A stretch of DNA of 30,731 bases from a virus, in IMG/VR virus record IMGVR_UViG_3300030329_001338, positions 1 to 30,731 of that record; one strand, written 5' to 3'. This document shows, piece after piece, positions 2,045 to 28,163 of this stretch. How positions within the stretch are numbered: the stretch's first letter is position 1; every line of letters begins with the position of its first letter. A program made the position numbers and the translations under genes. The notes under the pieces were generated by a model, which did not search any database, was not told the origin of the DNA, and worked only from the letters and a program-made list of their open reading frames with translations.

Positions 2045-4257
2045 TGGCTATTACTATTTCTGACACAGAACCTCGTGTCCAATATACTGCAACATCAGGA
2101 CAGACTAGTTTTTCTGTTCCTTTTGAATTTTTTACAGTAAACGATATTAAAGTTTACAATGGTTCTTCATTATTATCATACAATGCTTCACCATCATCAG
2201 CTTCACAATATTCGGTTTCAGGAGCAGGAGTTTCTGGTGGAGGATCAATTACATTAGGGGGTGGGGCTACTCTTAATGATGTAATTACTATTTATAGAGA
2301 TTTAGCAATAGCTAGATCTACTGACTTTCCAACTTCAGGTGCTTTTCAAATATCTTCATTAAATGATGAATTAGATAAAATTATAGCTATGTGTCAACAG
2401 CTTGAAAGAGATTTAAAATTCTCTCCAAGAGCTGCAGCAACAACAGCAAATACATTTAATATTACTTTTCCTAACCTTGCAGCAAACAAAGTATTATCAG
2501 TAAATAGTTCTGGTAATGGATTAGAGTTTGCTCAAGATATAACTGACATTACAACAATTGCAGGTATAGCATCTCATGTAACTACTGTTTCCGGAATTGC
2601 ATCAAATGTAACTTCGGTAGCAGGTAATGCAACAAATATTAATACAGTAGCTACAAATATTGGATCAGTAAATACGGTAGCAGCAGATATTACAAAAGTA
2701 GTAGCAGTCGCAAATGATTTAGCTGAAACAGTTTCTGAAATTGAAACAGTAGCAGATGACTTAAATGAAACTACTTCTGAAATAGATACAGTAGCTGGAT
2801 CTGTAGTTAATGTAGATGCAGTAGGAACTAATATTGCTTCAGTAAATACATTAGCAGGATTAAATACAGAAATTACAAATTTAAATGCTAAAGCAACTGA
2901 AATAGGTAGATTAGGTACAACACAAGCTGTTGCTGACTTGGCTACATTAGGTACAACTAGCATGGTGTCTAATATAAACACACTTGCAGGTATTACAAAT
3001 TTAGATAATTTAGCTGATGCACATGCAGCAGTTACTTCTGTTAATAATAATTTAGCAGCAGTACAAAACTTTGCAGATGTTTATAGAATATCAAGTTCAG
3101 CACCAACTTCAAGTTTAAATGTTGGTGACCTATATTTCGACACTACTGCTAACGAATTAAAAGTTTATAAATCTTCTGGATGGGCAGCTGCAGGTTCTAC
3201 AGTTAATGGAACATCTCAAAGATATACTTATAACATTACAGGTACACCAACTACAGTTACTGGAGCAGATGCAAATGGAAACACTCTTGCTTATGATGCA
3301 GGATATGCAGATGTATATTTAAACGGAGTAAGATTATCAGGAGCAGATATTACAATTACTTCAGGTACTTCAGTAGTATTTGCTAGTGCTTTAGCAGCAG
3401 GTGATGTTGTTGATATTGTAGCTTATGGAACATTTAATGTTGCGTCAGTTAATGCAGCTAACATAGATGCAGGAACATTAAACATTGCAAGAATTGGAGA
3501 TGATTCAATTACAAATGCTAAAATGGCAGATGATGCAATTGATTCAGCTCAAATAGCAGATGGTGCAGTTGATAATGTTCATCTTGCTAATAATGCAATT
3601 ACAATTAACGGATCAGCAGTACAATTAGGTGGTTCAGTTACAGTAGGTGAAACTAAACCTACTATATCAAGTTTAACTCCTAGTGTTATTACTAACGATC
3701 CTTCTAATGTAGTTATTGCAGGAGCAAATTTTGTAGCAATACCTAGAGTACACGCAATTAATACTTCAACAGGAATATGGTATGAAGCAAGTACAGTTAC
3801 TTATACTTCTGCTTCATCAATAACAGCAAACTTTACATTAACTGTTGATTCAGCAAATTACAGAATTAGAGTTGAAAACCCAGATGGTAATGCAGTTATA
3901 TCTGGTGCTAGTGCATTAAATGTAAGTGATGCACCTGCTTGGACAACAGGAGCAGGATCTCTTGGAACAATAGCTGGTAATTTTTCAGGAACAGTTGCAA
4001 CAGTAGCAGCAACAGGAGATACAATTGCTTATACAGAAGTATCTTCTCCTTTAGTTTTAACAAACGCATCTTCAGCTAACTGTGCGTTGAACAGCTCATC
4101 AGGAGCAATTACAACTTCAGACTTTGGTGGTTCAAGTACAGCAGCAACTTTATATACTTTTACTATCAGAGCAACAGACGCACAAGGACAAACAAGTGAT
4201 AGAGTATTTACATTACAATCATCATTTGGTGCAACAGGAGGAGCACAATTTAACTAA
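2044..4257 (+). CDS. Tail fibre protein with T7 gp17-like N-terminus
   Basis: 737 aa. Residues 1-135 (RVQYTATSGQTSFSVPFEFF... LNDELDKIIAMCQQLERDLK) match the T7 tail-fibre N-terminal domain, which anchors fibres to the podovirus tail. Residues of about 165-300 form a long heptad-like repeat of short TVAxxxxNI/TVSEIE units, a probable trimeric coiled coil. A short fibre motif (SSSAPTSSLNVGDLYFDTTANELKVY) follows near 350. Residues of about 540-640 resemble an IPT/TIG Ig-like fold and the last 100 a cadherin/He_PIG-like fold. It starts in a TAATG overlap with the virion protein gene and ends in another with the next fibre gene. Likely the structural fibre shaft to which the downstream tip proteins attach. 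Confidence 0.85.
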   Translation: MAITISDTEPRVQYTATSGQTSFSVPFEFFTVNDIKVYNGSSLLSYNASPSSASQYSVSGAGVSGGGSITLGGGATLNDVITIYRDLAIARSTDFPTSGAFQISSLNDELDKIIAMCQQLERDLKFSPRAAATTANTFNITFPNLAANKVLSVNSSGNGLEFAQDITDITTIAGIASHVTTVSGIASNVTSVAGNATNINTVATNIGSVNTVAADITKVVAVANDLAETVSEIETVADDLNETTSEIDTVAGSVVNVDAVGTNIASVNTLAGLNTEITNLNAKATEIGRLGTTQAVADLATLGTTSMVSNINTLAGITNLDNLADAHAAVTSVNNNLAAVQNFADVYRISSSAPTSSLNVGDLYFDTTANELKVYKSSGWAAAGSTVNGTSQRYTYNITGTPTTVTGADANGNTLAYDAGYADVYLNGVRLSGADITITSGTSVVFASALAAGDVVDIVAYGTFNVASVNAANIDAGTLNIARIGDDSITNAKMADDAIDSAQIADGAVDNVHLANNAITINGSAVQLGGSVTVGETKPTISSLTPSVITNDPSNVVIAGANFVAIPRVHAINTSTGIWYEASTVTYTSASSITANFTLTVDSANYRIRVENPDGNAVISGASALNVSDAPAWTTGAGSLGTIAGNFSGTVATVAATGDTIAYTEVSSPLVLTNASSANCALNSSSGAITTSDFGGSSTAATLYTFTIRATDAQGQTSDRVFTLQSSFGATGGAQFN
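4081..4089 (+). repeat. TGTGCGTTG dispersed motif, copy 2
   Basis: Exact copy of TGTGCGTWG within the 3' end of the fibre gene, about 170 bases before the start of the LamG/SPRY fibre gene. Confidence 0.6.
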
Positions 4258-5612
4258 TGGCATCAACATATTTAACAAAAACTTTTAGTGGTTCAGGTAA
4301 TAGAAAAACATTTACTATTTCTGTATGGATTAAAAGAAGTAAATTAGGTGGAAATCAACACCCTATTATAGGAGTAGGTGGTAGTGGAAGCTATGCTAGT
4401 AATTTATACTTCCAATCAGGTGATCAATTAGATTTTTGGAATTATTCTAATGGTTCTTATGCTGGAAGAAAAACTACTAATAGAAAATTTCGAGATACTA
4501 CAGGATGGTATAATATTGTTGTAGCAGTAGATACAAGTTCTAATCAATCAACAGCAGACGATAGAATAAAAATATATGTAAATGGAGAAAGGATAACTTC
4601 ATTTTCGACAAGCAGTAATCCAAGCCAAGATCAAACTTTTGAATATAGTTCAGCATCAGCACACGAAATAGGAAGAAATGGAGACAACGCTCATGTTTTC
4701 GATGGTTATATGTCGCATTTTCATTTTGTAGATGGTTCACAATTAGAGCCAACAGTATTCGGTTCCGTGGATAGTAGTACAGGACAATGGAAAATAAATA
4801 CTTCGCCAAGTTTTACTCCAGGCACAAATGGTTTTACAATTTTAAAAGACGGAAATACAATTACAGACCAATCAACTAACAGTAATGATTTTACTTTAGC
4901 AGCTGGGACATTATCTCAATCAAAAGATAATCCAAGCCAAGTATTCGCAACTTTAAATCCAGAAGAATGTGGAATGAACTCTGGTGCTACACCGACTAAT
5001 GGTAATTCAACTTTTGGAACTGCAGCAGCTCAATGGCATACTGAAGCATCAACTTTTGGAATTACAAGAGGAAAATATTATTGGGAAACTCAAATGAGAG
5101 ATGCAGGTGGTGACAGAAGAATGAGATGGGGAATGGTTAATGAAAAAAATTTAAGCTATACTGGAAATAATAAAGTTTTATTTGGTTCAGATAAAAATGC
5201 TATTGGTTTTAAAACTAATGGAGAAAGTGCAACAGACCATGGATATGGAGTTGGTTCAAGTGAAACAACTTTATCTGGAGATATAAACTCAGATAATGGT
5301 GTTTATGGTTTTGCAATAGATTATGATAATCAAAAAATGTGGGGAAGTTATAATGGCTCATGGTTAAATTCAGGTGATCCTACTAATGGTACAAATGGAA
5401 TTGATGTTAGTTCTTATTATAATATTGGTGATCCATTATTTCCATGTTGGACAACTCACAATTCATATATAGATTTTAATGCTGGAAATGGAACATTTGC
5501 TGGAACAGCATTAACTGGAACAACTTACAGCGATGTCGATGGCAATGGGGTATTTAAATATACTGTTCCAACAAATTTTAGATGTTTAAGTTCGAAAGGA
5601 ATTAATCAATAA
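4257..5612 (+). CDS. Tail fibre/tip protein with LamG-like and SPRY-like domains
   Basis: 451 aa. Residues 1-165 (FTISVWIKR..., WYNIVVAVDTS..., RIKIYVNGERI..., GYMSHFHFVDG) form a concanavalin A-like/laminin-G lectin fold. Residues of about 270-440 (GKYYWETQM, VYGFAIDYDNQKMWGSYNG, FPCWTTHNSYIDFNAG) resemble a SPRY/B30.2 domain. Such pairs are common in marine phage receptor-binding proteins and are expected to bind cell-surface glycans or proteins. It is coupled to the preceding fibre by TAATG and followed by a strong AAGGAG site for the next gene. Receptor binding is inferred from the domains and position. Confidence 0.8.
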   Translation: MASTYLTKTFSGSGNRKTFTISVWIKRSKLGGNQHPIIGVGGSGSYASNLYFQSGDQLDFWNYSNGSYAGRKTTNRKFRDTTGWYNIVVAVDTSSNQSTADDRIKIYVNGERITSFSTSSNPSQDQTFEYSSASAHEIGRNGDNAHVFDGYMSHFHFVDGSQLEPTVFGSVDSSTGQWKINTSPSFTPGTNGFTILKDGNTITDQSTNSNDFTLAAGTLSQSKDNPSQVFATLNPEECGMNSGATPTNGNSTFGTAAAQWHTEASTFGITRGKYYWETQMRDAGGDRRMRWGMVNEKNLSYTGNNKVLFGSDKNAIGFKTNGESATDHGYGVGSSETTLSGDINSDNGVYGFAIDYDNQKMWGSYNGSWLNSGDPTNGTNGIDVSSYYNIGDPLFPCWTTHNSYIDFNAGNGTFAGTALTGTTYSDVDGNGVFKYTVPTNFRCLSSKGINQ

Positions 5613-8613: not shown

Positions 8614-9375
8614 ATGTTTAAAGGACACAGAATAGTAGTTATAGGAGATGCACATGACTCTCCACATATACCCCAAGACAGATTTAAATGGATTGGGAAA
8701 TACATTAAAAAAATAGAACCTGACTATATTATTCAAATAGGTGATTGGGCTTCATTCGATAGCTTAAGTTATTTTCAAAAAAATTCTTCTCAAGCTGGTA
8801 AACTTAAAGATGCCTTTATGGTAGACATAGATTCTTTAAGATCCTCTATTGATTTGCTAGACAAATATATTGACAATGACAGAATACCTAGACATTGCAC
8901 ATTCGGTAACCACGAACAAAGAGTTTATAAGTTTGAAGAAGGAATCCCAGAAATACAGGGTATGATGAAAAAGGAGCTTCATGATACTTTTTTATTGCGT
9001 AACTGGAAAATTTCTCCTTACGGAGCATTTAAACATATAGGGGGGGTGGCCTTCACTCATTGCCCATTGAATATTATGGGAAAAGAATATGGTGGAAAGA
9101 ACTGCGAGGTTCAAATAGCTAATGATGCAACTAATGATATAGTATTCGGTCATACTCACAAATACAGAGATTGGAAAGCTCCTAAAATAGGAGATAGAAA
9201 TTATGTTCGAATAGTTAATGTAGGTTGTGCGTTGCCTTTTAATCATGTTGAGGAGTATGCTAAATTGAATTTAACTGGATGGAGTTGGGGAATAGTCGAA
9301 CTCGGAATCTGGGAAAATCACATCCAAGAAAGTCAATTTATTTCTATGGATAGATTGGAGAAACAATATGCTTGA
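8614..9375 (+). CDS. Calcineurin-like metallophosphoesterase
   Basis: 253 aa. The metallophosphatase motifs are complete and in order: GDAH (D12, H14), GDW (D44), GNHE (N99, H100), a lone FTH (H149) and GHTH (H180, H182). These bind two metal ions and hydrolyse phosphomono- or diesters. Phage members are often placed with lysis or late genes; the substrate is unknown (protein, nucleotide or DNA ends). The gene starts three bases after the previous stop without a good ribosome site. A TGTGCGTTG motif lies inside its 3' part. Confidence 0.85.
   Translation: MFKGHRIVVIGDAHDSPHIPQDRFKWIGKYIKKIEPDYIIQIGDWASFDSLSYFQKNSSQAGKLKDAFMVDIDSLRSSIDLLDKYIDNDRIPRHCTFGNHEQRVYKFEEGIPEIQGMMKKELHDTFLLRNWKISPYGAFKHIGGVAFTHCPLNIMGKEYGGKNCEVQIANDATNDIVFGHTHKYRDWKAPKIGDRNYVRIVNVGCALPFNHVEEYAKLNLTGWSWGIVELGIWENHIQESQFISMDRLEKQYA
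9226..9234 (+). repeat. TGTGCGTTG dispersed motif, copy 4
   Basis: Exact copy of TGTGCGTWG inside the metallophosphatase gene, 134 bases before the small gene at 9368 and about 230 before the endolysin start. Confidence 0.55.
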
Positions 9376-11608: not shown

Positions 11609-12056
11609 ATCATAAGATTATATTTGGCTCAAGAACTAGCAACGCACTTGTTTCCATCTTGAATTAAGCAGTATACCTAGGACTGCTAATTAATCTGCAC
11701 CAAATAATCTGTTTTCTCAACCTTTTCTTATAGTTAACTGGTTTCCACGAAAACAATATTAATATTTCGCTTACTATAACCCATATGCAGTACCCTTAGT
11801 AAGTAAAGCTGCATTGTTGGAATATCCATATTAATACCAGCGAGGGGTAAAAACCTACTCTTTCTAAATAGGTACCAACCCCCTCGCTAGAAGGAGTATG
11901 TTGGATGAAACAAAAACACCCTTCATACATTTAAAGTCCTGTATGATTTCAGGACTATCTCGGCTTTGTTTATATGGTGTTAATTCACCAACCAGGAATT
12001 AATTTAATAGGTTTTCCTGGATCACACTTAAGTGCTTACTTCCTAACCAAGAATAT
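11609..12056. other. Non-coding, hairpin-rich region between SSB and the last early gene
   Basis: No convincing gene is present. Inverted repeats: ATGCAG/CTGCAT (11785-11790/11809-11814); AGCGAGGGG/CCCCTCGCT (11839-11847/11880-11888) enclosing ACCTA/TAGGT; AGTCCT/AGGACT (11935-11940/11951-11956); CCAGGAA/TTCCTGG (11992-11998/12014-12020); and the palindrome CACTTAAGTG (12025-12034). On the + strand an AAGGAG lies at 11891-11896 before short frames. A structured leader or small RNA is likely, but neither strand nor function can be fixed. Confidence 0.5.
11839..11888. other. 50-nt two-tier stem-loop
   Basis: A 9-bp perfect outer stem (AGCGAGGGG with CCCCTCGCT) encloses an internal loop and a 5-bp inner stem (ACCTA with TAGGT) with an 11-nt loop. 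It is much more G+C-rich than the flanking AT-rich sequence and lacks a T-run on either side, so it is not a simple terminator. Candidate small RNA domain or regulatory leader element. Confidence 0.5.
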
Positions 12057-15032: not shown

Positions 15033-15326
15033 CTAGCTATTATGGGCTTCTATGGATGACTCCAATGCCATAAATTCGTTAATATTCCAGTTATTTTCTT
15101 TGCATAAATGTACTAATTGTACAGCAAATATTCTATTAATACCTTTTTCCCACTTTTGAACTTGTTGAAAAGTCACATTACATTGTGCTCCAATATTTGA
15201 TTGTGTGAGTTTCGATTTCTTTCTTAATTCTTTAAGATGCTGACCGATTTCATAAGTTAAATTATCTTCCTGACTAACAAAACTAGCTTCTTTAGTCCAT
15301 TGATTTATTTTATTTTCTTGTTTCAT
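15033..15326 (-). CDS. XRE-family helix-turn-helix protein
   Basis: 97 aa. Residues of about 26-82 are a canonical HTH_3 domain (IGQHLKELRKKSKLTQSNIGAQCNVTFQQVQKWEKGINRI), with the recognition helix at NVTFQQVQKWE. A 25-residue N-terminal arm and short tail flank it. It overlaps the DnaA-like gene by 17 bases and has an AGAGGTG site. It is the last gene before the internal promoter at 14939-14966. Likely a Cro/CI-like switch protein. Confidence 0.8.
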   Translation of the reverse strand: MKQENKINQWTKEASFVSQEDNLTYEIGQHLKELRKKSKLTQSNIGAQCNVTFQQVQKWEKGINRIFAVQLVHLCKENNWNINEFMALESSIEAHNS

Positions 15327-15807
15327 TTAACACCTCTGTTTTTAAATAGTTATAGACTTTATGATTATTAGGAATTTTCCAAAATGAAGAACTCCCAATT
15401 CTTGTTTTTACATAATGAATAACACTTGTGTGATCTCTATTCATTATTCTAGAAATTTCTGGAAAAGATAAAGCAGTACATTCTCTCATTAAATTCGCTA
15501 TCATAGATCTCGGTATCACTAAATACTGATCTCGACATTTACCTATTAATTCAACTTTAGAAACTTTAAAATAGTTAACAACAACATTGTAAATTGTTTC
15601 TACTATTTTTTGATTATTAATAACTGGCCCAGCTGGAATATCTGCTGGTCTATTAGGTATGATAACTTTTTTAATTTTTTGACGAAGTGCTGCACCTGAT
15701 CTAAAACCATTTCTAAATGCAGTACGGTATATGACAAACTCCTTATTTGTAAGTCCTTCAAATTCAGGAGCATTCCGTGCCATAGAATAAACATGTTTAA
15801 AATCCAT
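15310..15807 (-). CDS. DnaA domain IV-only DNA-binding protein
   Basis: 165 aa. Residues of about 66-140 (IVETIYNVVVNYFKVSKVELIGKCRD...PRSMIANLMRECTALSFPEISRIM) and NRDHTSVIH at 123-131 are the DnaA C-terminal double-stranded-DNA-binding domain. It has no AAA+ or domain I sequence, so it can recognise DnaA boxes but cannot load helicase by itself. It may recruit or block host DnaA, or mark the phage origin. The first 60 residues are a novel basic head. It starts in a TAATG overlap with the upstream gene. Confidence 0.85.
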   Translation of the reverse strand: MDFKHVYSMARNAPEFEGLTNKEFVIYRTAFRNGFRSGAALRQKIKKVIIPNRPADIPAGPVINNQKIVETIYNVVVNYFKVSKVELIGKCRDQYLVIPRSMIANLMRECTALSFPEISRIMNRDHTSVIHYVKTRIGSSSFWKIPNNHKVYNYLKTEVLNETRK

Positions 15808-17521: not shown

Positions 17522-18431
17522 ATAAATTTTCCCAATATTTAGATTGCATCATTTCAGCTACTTGTTTCTCTCTTTTTCTCGAAACATTGTAAACTGCTCC
17601 TCTGGTGATTGGATGTGTTGCCCAGTCAGTTGCAGTTTGATAAACCGCAAAAACTGTATTGCCATATTTAGCAACATACTTACTCCATAAAGAGTCCAAA
17701 TCACGCATAACAATGACACTGTTATTATCGATATCGAGATTTCTTTTATTTGTGTTAGCCAAGGTTTTTCTGAAACATTCCGTAACATCTGTTACCTCTA
17801 CTTTCTTTTGCATCATTTTAAACATTTCATCGCCCATTTCTTTATGGCTTTCTAAACCATCACGAAATTCAGCGACACTATAGGTAATATCCTTTTTGGA
17901 ACTATGTTTATTATAAACAGTAAATGTCCAATCAGGTCTTACCATTCCATTTAAACACCACATATAGATGGAAGAAAACATAATTTGTTGTCCCCATTGT
18001 CCATCAAGTGATGAGTAAATTCTTACTTGTGGAATAATACATTCGTTAGCTCTTTTATTAGAGTCTAAATATATTTGTTTATTCCAAAAGTTTATATTCC
18101 TTCGGTATTTTTTACCATCAGCATATACCCAATCTTCTGTTGTTATTTTCCATTTATAAATATCAGGTACGGCATCTAAAATTACTTCGTTAACCTTTTC
18201 TGCTAAATCAGAATACGGTCTAACTATGTAATCATCAGAGTGAATACCAAGTAATTTACCATTATCTTTTCTTACTAAAGCATATCTATTAACTGGTAAC
18301 ATTTGTGGTGTACCACCATGTTGTTTCCAATCATAATCTCTATATTTTAGTTGTACTTTACGAACATCAAAATACGCACTTTCGTCTATTGTGAGTAGCG
18401 TATTCGGTTTCATTTGTGTAGCTAATTGCAT
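17514..18431 (-). CDS. DUF932 (phage/plasmid-like) protein
   Basis: 305 aa from ATG 18431, which follows an AAAGAGG site. A longer frame to 18524 exists but would run through a 7-bp hairpin, so I prefer the shorter start. Motifs: YALVRKDNGKLLGIHSDDYIVRPYSDLAEKV (about 52-82), PQVRIYSSLDGQWGQQIMFSSIYMWCLNGMVR (about 136-168) and the C-terminal AVYQTATDWATHP. These match the DUF932 family, abundant in phages and plasmids and of unknown biochemical function. First gene after the structured leader 18432-18705. Confidence 0.75.
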   Translation of the reverse strand: MQLATQMKPNTLLTIDESAYFDVRKVQLKYRDYDWKQHGGTPQMLPVNRYALVRKDNGKLLGIHSDDYIVRPYSDLAEKVNEVILDAVPDIYKWKITTEDWVYADGKKYRRNINFWNKQIYLDSNKRANECIIPQVRIYSSLDGQWGQQIMFSSIYMWCLNGMVRPDWTFTVYNKHSSKKDITYSVAEFRDGLESHKEMGDEMFKMMQKKVEVTDVTECFRKTLANTNKRNLDIDNNSVIVMRDLDSLWSKYVAKYGNTVFAVYQTATDWATHPITRGAVYNVSRKREKQVAEMMQSKYWENLYA

Positions 18432-20662: not shown

Positions 20663-20708
20663 AAAAAAAGCCCCCATAGTAATAATTACTACGAGGGCTT
20701 AATTTTTT
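20663..20708. terminator. Bidirectional intrinsic terminator
   Basis: AAGCCC (20668-20673) pairs with GGGCTT (20695-20700) and AGTAAT with ATTACT inside. A7 lies to the left (a T-run on the minus strand) and T6 to the right. It should end the leftward transcript of the 20713-21433 genes and any rightward transcript entering from the left. Confidence 0.75.
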
Positions 20709-20712
20709 GATG

Positions 20713-21225
20713 TTATCCAGCTAATAGTTTATTAGCTTCAGCTAACATCATATCTTTTTCAGCTTTATCTACATAAACCTTATCAGTAACATTTCCTCTT
20801 TTAGATTTAGGTACATAATCTTTATCAAAGATTTTCTTATACTCATCCTCTAAAGTACTAACAATTATTTTACTTCTTCTACAATTCAAAGTTTGAGCTT
20901 TAACTTTAAATAACGCAGAAGATAATTTACCTTTAGAGATTTCAGTACCTACATCTTCTCGTGTGTACTTTTTCAATTCCTCTTTGGATTTATCCAACGA
21001 AGAATTACACATTTCATCGTGTCTAGCCATTGAACCATATACAGAATCAAAATTCCATTCTGCAATTCTAGCCCAATCTTGGCAGTCTATGAAAGGTGTA
21101 ATTATTGATTGAACAAAAGTTCTTACACCTTCTTTCACAGCTTTCTCATTATCATCAAGGACTAACTCCATATTAAGCAATCTGCTTTCAGGATCGTCTT
21201 TGTATATGTTTTTTACATTATCCAT
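20713..21225 (-). CDS. Hypothetical protein, charged and helical
   Basis: 170 aa, strong AAGGAG site before ATG 21225. Mostly helix with Lys/Glu pairs. Landmarks are DCQDWARIAEWNFDSVYGSMARHDEMCNSSLDK, TLNCRRSKIIVSTLEDEYKKIFDKDYVPKS and a C-terminal AEKDMMLAEANKLLAG. No known family. It forms a two-gene transcript with the 21227 gene, ended by the terminator directly after it. This position, next to the large non-coding region, suggests very early expression. Confidence 0.6.
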   Translation of the reverse strand: MDNVKNIYKDDPESRLLNMELVLDDNEKAVKEGVRTFVQSIITPFIDCQDWARIAEWNFDSVYGSMARHDEMCNSSLDKSKEELKKYTREDVGTEISKGKLSSALFKVKAQTLNCRRSKIIVSTLEDEYKKIFDKDYVPKSKRGNVTDKVYVDKAEKDMMLAEANKLLAG

Positions 21226-21226
21226 A

Positions 21227-21433
21227 TTATACTCCTTTGTTAATTGGATTTACTTTAATTTCACCATAGCCAGTTAATTCACTATCTATGATTGCAACCT
21301 CATCAGTATTATTTACCGATTCAGCTACATCTCTCTTAATAGCCAACTCCTCAACTCGCTTGATTTTATCGCTATCTTCACGAATCTTAAAATAAGCTAT
21401 TAACTCTTTAGCTCTTTCAGATATCTTAATCAT
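21227..21433 (-). CDS. Small acidic hypothetical protein
   Basis: 68 aa with the best ribosome site of the leftward genes (AGGAGG before ATG 21433). Helical first half (ISERAKELIAYFKIREDSDKIKRVEELAIKR) and a short beta tail. No motif. First leftward gene out of the structured 21434-22041 region; no clear -35/-10 was found for it. Separated by one base from the next gene. Confidence 0.55.
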   Translation of the reverse strand: MIKISERAKELIAYFKIREDSDKIKRVEELAIKRDVAESVNNTDEVAIIDSELTGYGEIKVNPINKGV

Positions 21434-21472
21434 ATCATCCTCCTAGTTATTTAATTAACCCATATCATTTAA

Positions 21473-21660
21473 CACTCATGGGATTACTCGAGCAGTCATC
21501 ATGAGGCAAAGCTGAATGACACATGGGACACAGGAGTCCCCATTAGGAAATTGTTCACAATTTGCCTTATGGGTTGCACCTTGTGTGCGACTCTCGTGTC
21601 CTCGTCTACGACCATGTTCATTCAGGCAAACTCATGATACAAGCGAGTACATTCCGTGTG
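21473..21660. ncRNA. Candidate structured RNA, nested multi-stem fold
   Basis: Nested perfect pairings: TACTCG/CGAGTA (21485-21490/21644-21649); ATCATGAG/CTCATGAT (21498-21505/21631-21638); CTGAATGA/TCATTCAG (21512-21519/21618-21625), stacked with ACATGG/CCATGT (21521-21526/21612-21617) apart from one bulged C. Inside is a 14-bp hairpin at 21539-21573 with loop TTCA, one T.T mismatch and one bulged G. About 48% G+C by hand count against roughly a third in genes. No likely gene. Strand uncertain; a packaging-site DNA structure is the alternative. Confidence 0.5.
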
Positions 21661-21685
21661 TGTGGGGGCCCCATAGAGATACTGA

Positions 21686-21751
21686 TAAATAATGGGAAAT
21701 GCTTCCCTAAGGACGCATTTAGCAGCTCCTTTCAGCTGCGACCATTATTTA
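21686..21751. other. Second stem-loop domain of the non-coding region
   Basis: A 10-bp outer stem TAAATAATGG/CCATTATTTA (21686-21695/21742-21751) encloses GCAGCT/AGCTGC (21722-21727/21734-21739, loop CCTTTC). A competing hairpin GGGAA/TTCCC (21694-21698/21703-21707) shares two G with the outer stem, so the element could switch between two folds. Confidence 0.5.
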
Positions 21752-21779
21752 GAGGGATTAGAATCGTACAGCTGTTGAA

Positions 21780-21805
21780 ATAATATCGACCAAAGGAGAT
21801 ATTAT
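21780..21805 (+). promoter_or_regulatory. Hairpin presenting a ribosome site in its loop
   Basis: ATAATATC (21780-21787) pairs perfectly with GATATTAT (21798-21805). The 10-nt loop holds AAAGGA of a strong ribosome site (AAAGGAG 21792-21798), and the 3' arm includes the start of ATG 21804. Translation of the following mini-ORF should depend on this hairpin. Confidence 0.5.
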
Positions 21806-21827
21806 GATTACAGCTAGTAGATTATAA
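21804..21827 (+). CDS. Possible 7-codon leader peptide (MITASRL)
   Basis: ATG 21804 follows AAAGGAG at ideal spacing but reads only seven codons before TAA. With a strong ribosome site and no longer frame, it is either a regulatory leader peptide or a decoy. It lies about 240 bases ahead of the small terminase gene. Confidence 0.35.
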   Translation: MITASRL

Positions 21828-21849
21828 ATCTTGTATGGGGAACCAGAGC

Positions 21850-21923
21850 ATCGCCTGTGGCGATACCTTATTCAGATCTTAATGTAATTATACCAAGGGA
21901 GATCGTAAGAACCGTAGGTTCTT
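21850..21923. other. Two tight GC-rich hairpins
   Basis: ATCGCC-TGT-GGCGAT (21850-21864) and AAGAACC-GTA-GGTTCTT (21907-21923) are perfect stems with three-base loops. No T-run follows either, so they are not terminators. They are part of the hairpin-dense leader of the late genes. Confidence 0.5.
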
Positions 21924-21944
21924 GCCCAATACTAGATATAGTGT

Positions 21945-21953
21945 TGTGCGTAG
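21945..21953 (+). repeat. TGTGCGTAG dispersed motif, copy 6
   Basis: Exact copy of TGTGCGTWG, sitting in the loop of a TGTTG/CAACA hairpin (21942-21958), 89 bases before the small terminase ATG. Confidence 0.65.
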
Positions 21954-21982
21954 CAACATCTACTAAAGTGCTAATATAATGC

Positions 21983-22027
21983 TTGACAAGGAGAAATTCT
22001 ACCACTACGAACAGTTAGGGGTAGAAT
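21983..22027 (+). promoter_or_regulatory. Candidate late promoter with operator-like inverted repeat
   Basis: TTGACA (21983-21988), 17-bp spacer, weak -10 TACGAA (22006-22011). A perfect 8-bp inverted repeat ATTCTACC/GGTAGAAT (21996-22003/22020-22027) brackets the -10 and the expected start. The strong -35, poor -10 and symmetrical repeat suggest a regulated promoter for the rightward terminase-capsid genes. Confidence 0.5.
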
Positions 22028-22041
22028 AATAAAAGCGTTAT

Positions 22042-22413
22042 ATGAGCGAACTAACAGAGAAACAGAAGAAGCTAGTAGATACCATCGTAACAACTGGTTG
22101 TAGCATCAAGGATGCAGCTAAAACAGCTGGATATTCAAGTAAAGGAAGCGAAGAAGCAGGGAGAGTAAGTGCAAGTCGCACACTACGATTACCAAAGGTA
22201 CAGAGTTATATGCAACGAAGTATAGCAAATACTCTAGGACTTGGTGCAGTGAGTGCGTCTAGGAAACTTATCGACCTGTCTTCAGGAGCGAGAAGTGAGT
22301 ATGTCCAACTCGAAGCATCGAGAGATATACTAGACAGAGTAGGATTAAGAGCACCTGACAAGGTGGCTCATAATATTCAGGGCGATATTAAGATTAACAT
22401 CGACCTAAGTTAA
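22042..22413 (+). CDS. Terminase small subunit
   Basis: 123 aa. LTEKQKKLVDTIVTTGCSIKDAAKTAGYSSKGSEEAGRVSASRTLRLPKVQSYM (about 3-57) is the Terminase_2-type N-terminal helix-turn-helix that recognises the packaging site. ASRDILDRVGLRAPDKV is the usual C-terminal part. It forms a ring that hands DNA to the large subunit. There is no ribosome site at ATG 22042, which follows an inverted repeat, so translation may be leaderless-like or controlled. The codon use is less AT-rich than in neighbouring genes. Confidence 0.85.
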   Translation: MSELTEKQKKLVDTIVTTGCSIKDAAKTAGYSSKGSEEAGRVSASRTLRLPKVQSYMQRSIANTLGLGAVSASRKLIDLSSGARSEYVQLEASRDILDRVGLRAPDKVAHNIQGDIKINIDLS

Positions 22414-22956: not shown

Positions 22957-23166
22957 ATGTATTATAAAGTTAATGTTTGGAAGAATGACGAATTAAAAAA
23001 AGAAATTTACTATAAGGCAGATAATGATATTATTGCAATGCAAAAAGCAAGTGCTGCTATCCCTGATGGCTGCAGAGCAACATATGAGGAAATCGATGAA
23101 AAAATATACATCCAAGAAACCGAAACCAAAATCAAAACCGAAACCGAAGCCCAAGCCGAAGTCTAG
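22957..23166 (+). CDS. Hypothetical protein with low-complexity tail
   Basis: 69 aa, AAAGAGG site upstream. Residues 1-50 are a small alpha/beta fold (YYKVNVWKNDELKKEIYYKADNDIIAMQKA...). The tail QETETKIKTETEAQAEV is encoded by a hexamer-like GAAACC repeat that also encodes a Lys-Pro repeat in the +1 frame (23096-23176). The tail may therefore be a by-product of the embedded gene. Function unknown. Confidence 0.5.
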   Translation: MYYKVNVWKNDELKKEIYYKADNDIIAMQKASAAIPDGCRATYEEIDEKIYIQETETKIKTETEAQAEV

Positions 23167-26595: not shown

Positions 26596-28163
26596 TGGAA
26601 TATTTAGATACAAGTGATGTACCTATCACAAATAGTCACGATGGTGCAGCAGCAATCCTTAAAAAATATAAGGAAGCTCAAAACATAAAAGATTATTGGA
26701 AAGACAAATTTGAAGAAGCATATGAATATTGTCTTCCTAATAGAGAATCTTTTTATGATGAAGCACCAGGTCAAAAAAGAACAGATAAAATTTTTGATGA
26801 AACTGCAGTAGTAGGAGTACAAGAATTTGCTTCTAGACTACAAGCAGGTATTGTTCCTACATTTGCAAGATGGGCAGATTTTCAAGCTGGTTCAGAAGTT
26901 CCTCCAACTCAAAAATCATTTATTAATTTAGAGCTAGATAGAATTACTGATTATGTATTTCAAGTATTACAAAATTCTAATTTTAATCAAGAAGTCCATG
27001 AATCATTTATGGATTTAGCAATTGGCACAGGTATTATTCTTGTAGAAGAAGGTGATGCTGTTAATCCAATTAAATTTTCTGCAGTACCATTAACAAGAGT
27101 TTGTTTAAATACAGGCCCAGATGGTTCTATTGATTCTATATACAGAACAAGATATTGCAAACCTCATGAAATAAATATTTTATATCCAAGAGCTATATTA
27201 CCTGAAAACTTCGATCCTTTAAAAAATAAAAAGAAAGTTAAAATAATTGAAGCTGTATACAAAATACACGAAGATAATGTTGAAAAATATAAAATGTGTG
27301 TTGTTATGGAAAACCCAAAACATATTCTTTTAGAAGAAATGTATGAAGGTGAAGGTTCTTGCCCATATTTAGTATTTAGATGGAACAAAGCATCTGGTGA
27401 AGTTTATGGTAGAGGCCCAGTATTTAATGCAATGGGTGCTATTAAAACTTGTAATTTAACAATCGAATTAATATTACAAAATGCACAGATGTCAGTATCT
27501 GGAGTATATACTTATGAAGATGATGGCGTAATTAATCCTGATAACATTTCACTTGTTCCCGGATCTCTAATACCTGTAGCTCCAGGTTCTAAAGGTTTAC
27601 TACCAATTCAATCAGCATCTAATTTTGATGTAGCTCAATTAGTATTAAATGATATGCGTCAAAATATTAAAAAAGCATTATACATGGAAGCATTAGGTAG
27701 ACCTGAAGGAACACCTATGACAGCAACAGAAGTTTCTGAAAGAATGGCAGATCTATCAAGACAAATAGGTTCTTCTTTTGGTAGACTTCAATCTGAATTT
27801 ATAGCTCCATTGTTAAAAAGAATTATTAGAATTTTATCCAAACAGGGTAGAATAGAAATCCCTAAAGTAAACGGTAGGGAAGTTAAAATAGCTCCTCGTT
27901 CACCTCTAGCACAAGCACAACATTTACAAGATGTTGCTGATGTAACTAGATTCAACGAAATAATTGCAGGAACATTTGGCCCACAAATGATTAATTTAAT
28001 TGTGGATCAAAATGAAACTGCAAAATATTTAGCTGAAAAAATGAACTTACCAGAGAAGCTAATTAGAAACGAACAGGAGCAACAAGAGTTGGTTAATCGT
28101 TTACAACAACTAAGTGCTTCTGGACAAGCACCAGAGGAGGGTGAAGCTCCACCAGGAGCATGA
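26595..28163 (+). CDS. Portal protein (T7-like head-tail connector)
   Basis: 522 aa, the length of T7 gp8-type connectors. Landmarks: YWKDKFEEAYEYCLPNRESFYDE (about 30-55), FASRLQAGIVPTFARWADF (about 80-100), LDLAIGTG-like MDLAIGTGIILVEEG, YLVFRWNKASGEVYGRGPVFNAM (about 260-282), GTPMTATEVSERMADLSRQIGSSFGRLQSEF (about 375-405). It forms the 12-mer ring through which DNA enters and leaves. It follows directly on small genes with overlap and precedes Bbp19 and scaffold genes, the classic podovirus order. Confidence 0.93.
   Translation: MEYLDTSDVPITNSHDGAAAILKKYKEAQNIKDYWKDKFEEAYEYCLPNRESFYDEAPGQKRTDKIFDETAVVGVQEFASRLQAGIVPTFARWADFQAGSEVPPTQKSFINLELDRITDYVFQVLQNSNFNQEVHESFMDLAIGTGIILVEEGDAVNPIKFSAVPLTRVCLNTGPDGSIDSIYRTRYCKPHEINILYPRAILPENFDPLKNKKKVKIIEAVYKIHEDNVEKYKMCVVMENPKHILLEEMYEGEGSCPYLVFRWNKASGEVYGRGPVFNAMGAIKTCNLTIELILQNAQMSVSGVYTYEDDGVINPDNISLVPGSLIPVAPGSKGLLPIQSASNFDVAQLVLNDMRQNIKKALYMEALGRPEGTPMTATEVSERMADLSRQIGSSFGRLQSEFIAPLLKRIIRILSKQGRIEIPKVNGREVKIAPRSPLAQAQHLQDVADVTRFNEIIAGTFGPQMINLIVDQNETAKYLAEKMNLPEKLIRNEQEQQELVNRLQQLSASGQAPEEGEAPPGA

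Follow-up and report, generated by a model that had tools for sequence, protein, structure and literature searches.

Frpo and ssi elements have been known from conjugative plasmids, which pass into cells as single-stranded DNA. A promoter re-forms within the stem of the Frpo hairpin, with the 3' arm serving as the non-template strand, and the RNA runs off the 5' side. Frpo elements have been described as ssDNA stem-loops that are required for the expression of downstream genes from incoming single-stranded DNA (PMC9849209), and Frpo1 and Frpo2 have served as search queries (PMC11541004); in the open-licence PMC literature we found no paper tying Frpo to phages. The complementary-strand origins or ssi sites of M13 (ori-), G4 and phiX174 (PAS) are comparable to the phage element described here in that both would act as folded ssDNA starting RNA primers. 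GOLLD, ROOL, OLE and other large phage and bacterial RNAs (PMC12286853) resemble it in being large, ornate, phage-borne and covarying; unlike them, the element had no match in Rfam and the evidence points to ssDNA.

The DNA analysed (the window, a 30.7-kb virus record of 30,731 nt) belongs to a marine tailed phage whose nearest named relative is Pelagibacter phage EXVC031P Hodr (TerL 68%, TerS 57%). Around a non-coding stretch at 21434-22041, leftward early genes (SSB, YqaJ exonuclease, a DnaA C-terminal HTH protein, DUF932, a ParB-like protein and, below the Pfam cut-off, a Sak-like protein) diverge from rightward late genes (TerS, TerL and portal-type), and the phage proteins that were scanned yielded no polymerase, helicase or primase. 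The features of the locus are the following:

21227..21433 (-): first gene of the leftward early operon, 68 aa, taken from the ORF list; its template is the + strand bearing the element, and its homologues flank the element in relatives.
21473..21660 (+): D1, an extended imperfect hairpin whose internal loops AGCA/AAG and GCAAAG/GCAAA are conserved, supported by the folding z score, covariation and covariance model R1.
21485-21490/21644-21649 (+): outermost helix of D1, 6 bp.
21498-21505/21631-21638 (+): second helix, 8 bp.
21512-21519/21618-21625 (+): third helix, 8 bp; past a bulged C at 21520 follow the fourth helix, 6 bp (ACATGG/CCATGT), and then the inner hairpin.
21655..21676 (+): conserved junction CGTGTGTG..GGGGNCCCATAG, common to D1-type relatives and in part to relatives with a differing 5' hairpin.
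21669..21840 (+): D2, a branched domain with the closing helix CCCCATA/TATGGGG, drawn from predicted folds and its occurrence in relatives.
21841..21930 (+): D3, small hairpins, ending at about 21930.
21897-21927, inside D3: GGGAGATCGT followed by AAGAACC-GTA-GGTTCTT and GCCC.
21983..22011 (+): TTGACA-17-TACGAA, the probable late promoter of terS, 3' of the element; TTGACA is conserved upstream of terS in relatives.
22042..22413 (+): terS, small terminase (PHROG 51/2538, Pfam Terminase_2).

Several further observations were made elsewhere in the window. A strong leftward intrinsic terminator (20668-20700, - strand, 15 bp stem and T-run) lies within the early operon and had the most extreme structure z in the window scan. 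Another non-coding stretch, some 440 bases long (11610-12056) and flanked by leftward ORFs, contains a GC-rich hairpin near 11838-11893 (AGCGAGGGG...CCCCTCGCT), and a GAAACC hexamer repeat of 7.5 copies (23116-23160) forms the terminal part of a small ORF located between terS and terL.

A preliminary description had proposed a new structured RNA at 21473-21660. The fold itself was borne out: the four nested helices of 6, 8, 8 and 6 bp were present as claimed, followed by the inner hairpin, and the + strand folded as RNA reached -79.8 kcal/mol against -49.6±4.1 kcal/mol for dinucleotide shuffles (z -7.45), with 0 of 200 shuffles as good. The z score was -6.3 for the + strand with DNA parameters and -5.5 for the - strand. 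The G+C contrast also held (47.9% against 33.4% for the window), as did the lack of a credible gene: two overlapping + ORFs (58 and 73 aa) are not gene-like, the loops vary freely, and in relatives the ORFs differ or are absent. As to extent, the hairpin stood, while the interval proved to cover only the 5' third of an element of about 490 bases (approximately 21440-21930), which gave z -9.2 when folded as DNA; with both strands at about -9 to -10 as DNA, folding energy alone does not discriminate the strand. Scanning Rfam with both gathering and E-value thresholds returned nothing credible, GOLLD, ROOL and OLE included, which places the structure outside the Rfam families; the preliminary description had recognised no known phage RNA class in it. 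A tRNA/tmRNA scan and a blastn search of the region against named phages returned no match.

Relatives were collected by means of TerS and TerL, yielding 145 loci. In nearly all of these the stretch 5' of terS was non-coding and rich in predicted structure, with fast sequence turnover, and in every relative found the element had the leftward early operon on one side and terS on the other. The exact D1 motif occurred in 56 contigs, always adjacent to terS, to a leftward-gene homologue or to both, and terS followed directly in 55 of them; the 56th contig stops before terS would be reached. This position would fit a pac/cos packaging site recognised by TerS, a possibility raised in the preliminary description, but the R2 module that ends the element in most relatives (see below) also occurs in plasmids and inoviruses, both of which lack a terminase, terS is internal in full-length contigs, and no clear end falls at the element. 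With no sign of pac/cos, we consider a packaging site hardly credible. The element likewise has the orientation of terS and lies upstream of it, as would a leader or antitermination RNA of the late operon. This explanation is highly improbable, because the conserved TTGACA promoter sits between the element and terS, so that late transcripts would exclude the element; in Hodr the corresponding TTGACA-17-TATACT was the best + promoter within the 30 kb examined.

Covariation among homologues, which the preliminary description had named as a check, was found. The architecture of D1 remained constant while its helices were altered on both sides, with two-sided changes at 22 of 47 pairs (69 cells against 25±3.7 in shuffled alignments; 0 of 500 shuffles as high, and slid controls far lower). 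A covariance model of D1 (R1) matched 17 of the 72 loci searched, essentially all at the same place; plasmids, inoviruses and F gave no D1 match. In the closest relative (L198, TerL 97%) the inner part of D1 is exchanged: at 3480-3618 it carries an inner module that differs from that of the window and is nearly identical to one in other clades, a case of module exchange through recombination. In Hodr, a giant inverted repeat at 17560-17790 has arms that take in the leftward gene's ribosome site and the region of its start codon, along with a mirrored copy.

To determine which strand is constrained, we folded 45 elements with Watson-Crick pairs only and counted the 1x1 mismatches inside stems. 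G.T exceeded A.C on the + strand (54 against 17), with the reverse on the - strand, and the trend was seen in three groups and in 8 of 10 independent families, phylogenetic non-independence inflating several of the counts reported here. Selection therefore acts on the + strand alone, and the element is a non-coding single-strand fold for which a strand-symmetric cruciform is insufficient. The same asymmetry bears on a double-stranded origin or cruciform, for example a replication origin bound by the DnaA-domain protein of the phage. Gene direction and GC skew both switch at the element, and the phage does encode a DnaA C-terminal HTH protein, but the asymmetry rules out a strand-symmetric cruciform as the sole constraint, DnaA-box-like sites were not in excess, and no iterons or repeats were present within the region; we regard this explanation as very unlikely. 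The protein in question (15310-15807, - strand) is a stand-alone DnaA C-terminal DNA-binding domain and a possible initiator or modulator of host replication.

The loops were used to ask which molecule is folded. Stable loops in DNA include C-GNA-G and TTTA, while structured RNAs favour GNRA and UNCG. The apical loops likewise showed a strand bias: among triloops GNA made up 20 of 59 (7 of 103 in shuffles) and TNC 2, with GNA in excess of TNC in six of six families; TTTA outnumbered TAAA by 10 to 3, and 66 tetraloops included one GNRA and no UNCG. These loop types are suggestive of DNA, an argument weakened because the intrinsic terminators of these phages likewise lack GNRA and UNCG, although as an RNA control the terminator loops were too few to be informative (n=29).

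A + strand non-coding RNA, large and structured in the manner of GOLLD/ROOL and expressed during infection, would account for the strong covariation, the RNA folding score, the G+C contrast and the excess of G.U over A.C, which fits RNA as well. However, no position-conserved sigma70 promoter was found on the + strand upstream of D1 and no U-run terminator 3' of the element, so that a discrete RNA gene with its own promoter, searched for as sigma70, and its own terminator was not seen. In some relatives the ribosome site of the leftward gene abuts the hairpin, GNRA and UNCG loops are almost absent, and the R2 fold was correct only under DNA parameters. Such an RNA would also leave R2 in F Frpo, in virion strands and in the probable transferred strand of plasmids unexplained, and we judge it unlikely. 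What stood of the preliminary description is thus a conserved, covarying single-strand structure between divergent genes beside terS; the missing promoter and terminator, the loop types and the R2 kinship speak against RNA as the working molecule, and its passing remark on an origin came nearer the mark than its title.

In most relatives the element ends in R2, a cloverleaf of about 75-86 bases with the pattern GCGA..GGGATCGTTACCC-GAAT-GGGCCAAGAC...GGCTTGG..hairpin..TAGAGCCC..CGC. The module covaried (34 two-sided cells against 13.3±2.6; 0 of 500 shuffles as high), and the consensus fold (at least 80% of pairs) was recovered in 13 of 16 sequences with DNA parameters and in 1 of 16 with RNA parameters. 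A pattern search found R2 in 47 viral contigs, about half from outside these phages. Fifteen of the 47 bear inovirus Rep (Rep_trans) and/or Zot homologues, and in all 15 R2 lay on the Rep/Zot strand, i.e. the virion strand. By blastn, R2 was found in Pf1 and Pf prophages, the Sphingopyxis tailed phage VSN-002 and 89 plasmids, many of them alphaproteobacterial; the covariance model matched none of M13, G4 and phiX174, in contrast to Pf1. A cmsearch match also fell in a tailed-phage locus of a Rhodobacterales MAG (L202), between a leftward ORF and the ORF preceding terL. An R2 search of three MAGs gave no match and was insensitive, since cmsearch matches L202 from one of them.

All R2 matches listed were intergenic, bar record-level exceptions among phages, and among the plasmid matches listed no annotated feature lay under R2, the PLSDB gene tables being incomplete. 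On the plasmid maps read, its neighbours were SOS/establishment-type genes (psiB, umuDC, DUF932, methyltransferase and vapBC). In five of five rhizobial and Caulobacter plasmids with an identifiable relaxase, mostly related plasmids, R2 was on the strand opposite the relaxase gene; because this is the expected arrangement, R2 in these plasmids probably lies on the transferred strand. Several plasmids and VSN-002 carry two R2 copies apiece, and double positions include 20823-20889 and 35565-35630 (L242), 8760-8826 and 26937-27002 (L243), and 2450-2503 and 5006-5065 (L239); paired copies may represent a module serving more than one operon. The window itself gave no score with the R2 covariance model, and 21897-21927 appears to be an R2 remnant, the sole trace of R2 that it has kept.

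Searching 65 kb of F with an R2 covariance model built without any F sequence, we obtained matches at 58110-58167 (E 6e-5) and 63499-63555 (E 0.06), the latter weak on its own; being 92% alike, the two amount to one independent match counted twice. The first site is upstream of ssb and the second is 5.4 kb away, past a hok-type gene, and R2 lies on the transferred strand. These positions agree with those given for Frpo2 and Frpo1 (PMC9849209), namely upstream of ssb with about 5 kb between the two, and on this comparison of sequence and place the matches coincide with Frpo2 and Frpo1 in that order. The ParB-like, DUF932 and SSB genes of the phage early operon are present in the F leading region too. 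The phage element resembles F Frpo: it is non-coding and folds on one strand, and that strand is the template for a neighbouring early operon containing genes of the ssb/psiB/ParB/DUF932 type; this placement on the template strand of the early or leading operon was seen in the window (+ element, leftward operon), F, VSN-002 and several plasmids. Phage relatives and F also share the order of leftward gene, large 5' hairpin, further hairpins and 3' cloverleaf R2. They differ in that the phage element occurs in tailed dsDNA phages and the sequence of its 5' hairpin is unrelated, and the window lacks a full R2 and has weak promoter boxes.

Promoter-like boxes were scored along the stems of 43 elements. 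Read from apex to base, as in the Frpo geometry, 3' arms had a mean -35/-10-like score of 5.2 against 3.3 for 5' arms (p 2e-4), and the 3'-arm excess held in 11 of 13 family groupings. Good examples of such promoter-like boxes were seen in Hodr (TTGTTA-16-TATATT), in L058 and L072 (TTGACT-16-TATCAT) and in L130 (TTTACT-17-TATAAT); the 3'-arm boxes of the window scored 3.1.

The structure is conserved, selected on the + strand only and invariant in place and orientation, and R2 of the relatives is homologous to Frpo1/Frpo2 of F and to inovirus and plasmid modules. We favour a folded-ssDNA reading because the kinship of R2 with Frpo decides, together with the promoter-like boxes in the 3' arms. 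Accordingly worded, 21473-21660 is probably the 5' hairpin of an Frpo/ssi-type folded-ssDNA initiation locus of about 490 bases that starts leftward RNA on the + strand, a membership to which, in the case of the window, position, strand and relatives lend support rather than an R2 of its own. Once exposed, the + strand would fold into the large hairpin, the branched domain and the terminal cloverleaf module, and would recruit host machinery, either primase or, as F Frpo does, RNA polymerase. The recruited enzyme would start RNA synthesis leftward on the + strand, and this RNA could prime the complementary strand, be the first mRNA of the leftward early operon, or both. Candidate sources of the single-stranded + strand are displacement during replication and 5'-to-3' resection at an end by the YqaJ-type exonuclease of the phage. 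We infer the ssDNA state in this phage, the recruitment of an enzyme and a mode of working in the window like that of its relatives.

The R2 family is absent from Rfam and from the annotation of the records examined, and with its covariance model it is possible to find such elements well outside the small set of E. coli sequences that has served until now. It is possible, although we lean against it, that SAR11-type tailed phages pass early in infection through an ssDNA stage, in which the first genes would be transcribed and the second strand primed at a folded ssDNA locus that shares R2 with F Frpo, inovirus virion strands and rhizobial transferred strands. A signal for starting on ssDNA would be surprising cargo for a double-stranded DNA virus; if the proposal is true, a single cloverleaf would be in use in tailed phages, filamentous phages and plasmids, revealing an unsuspected ssDNA step in tailed-phage infection.
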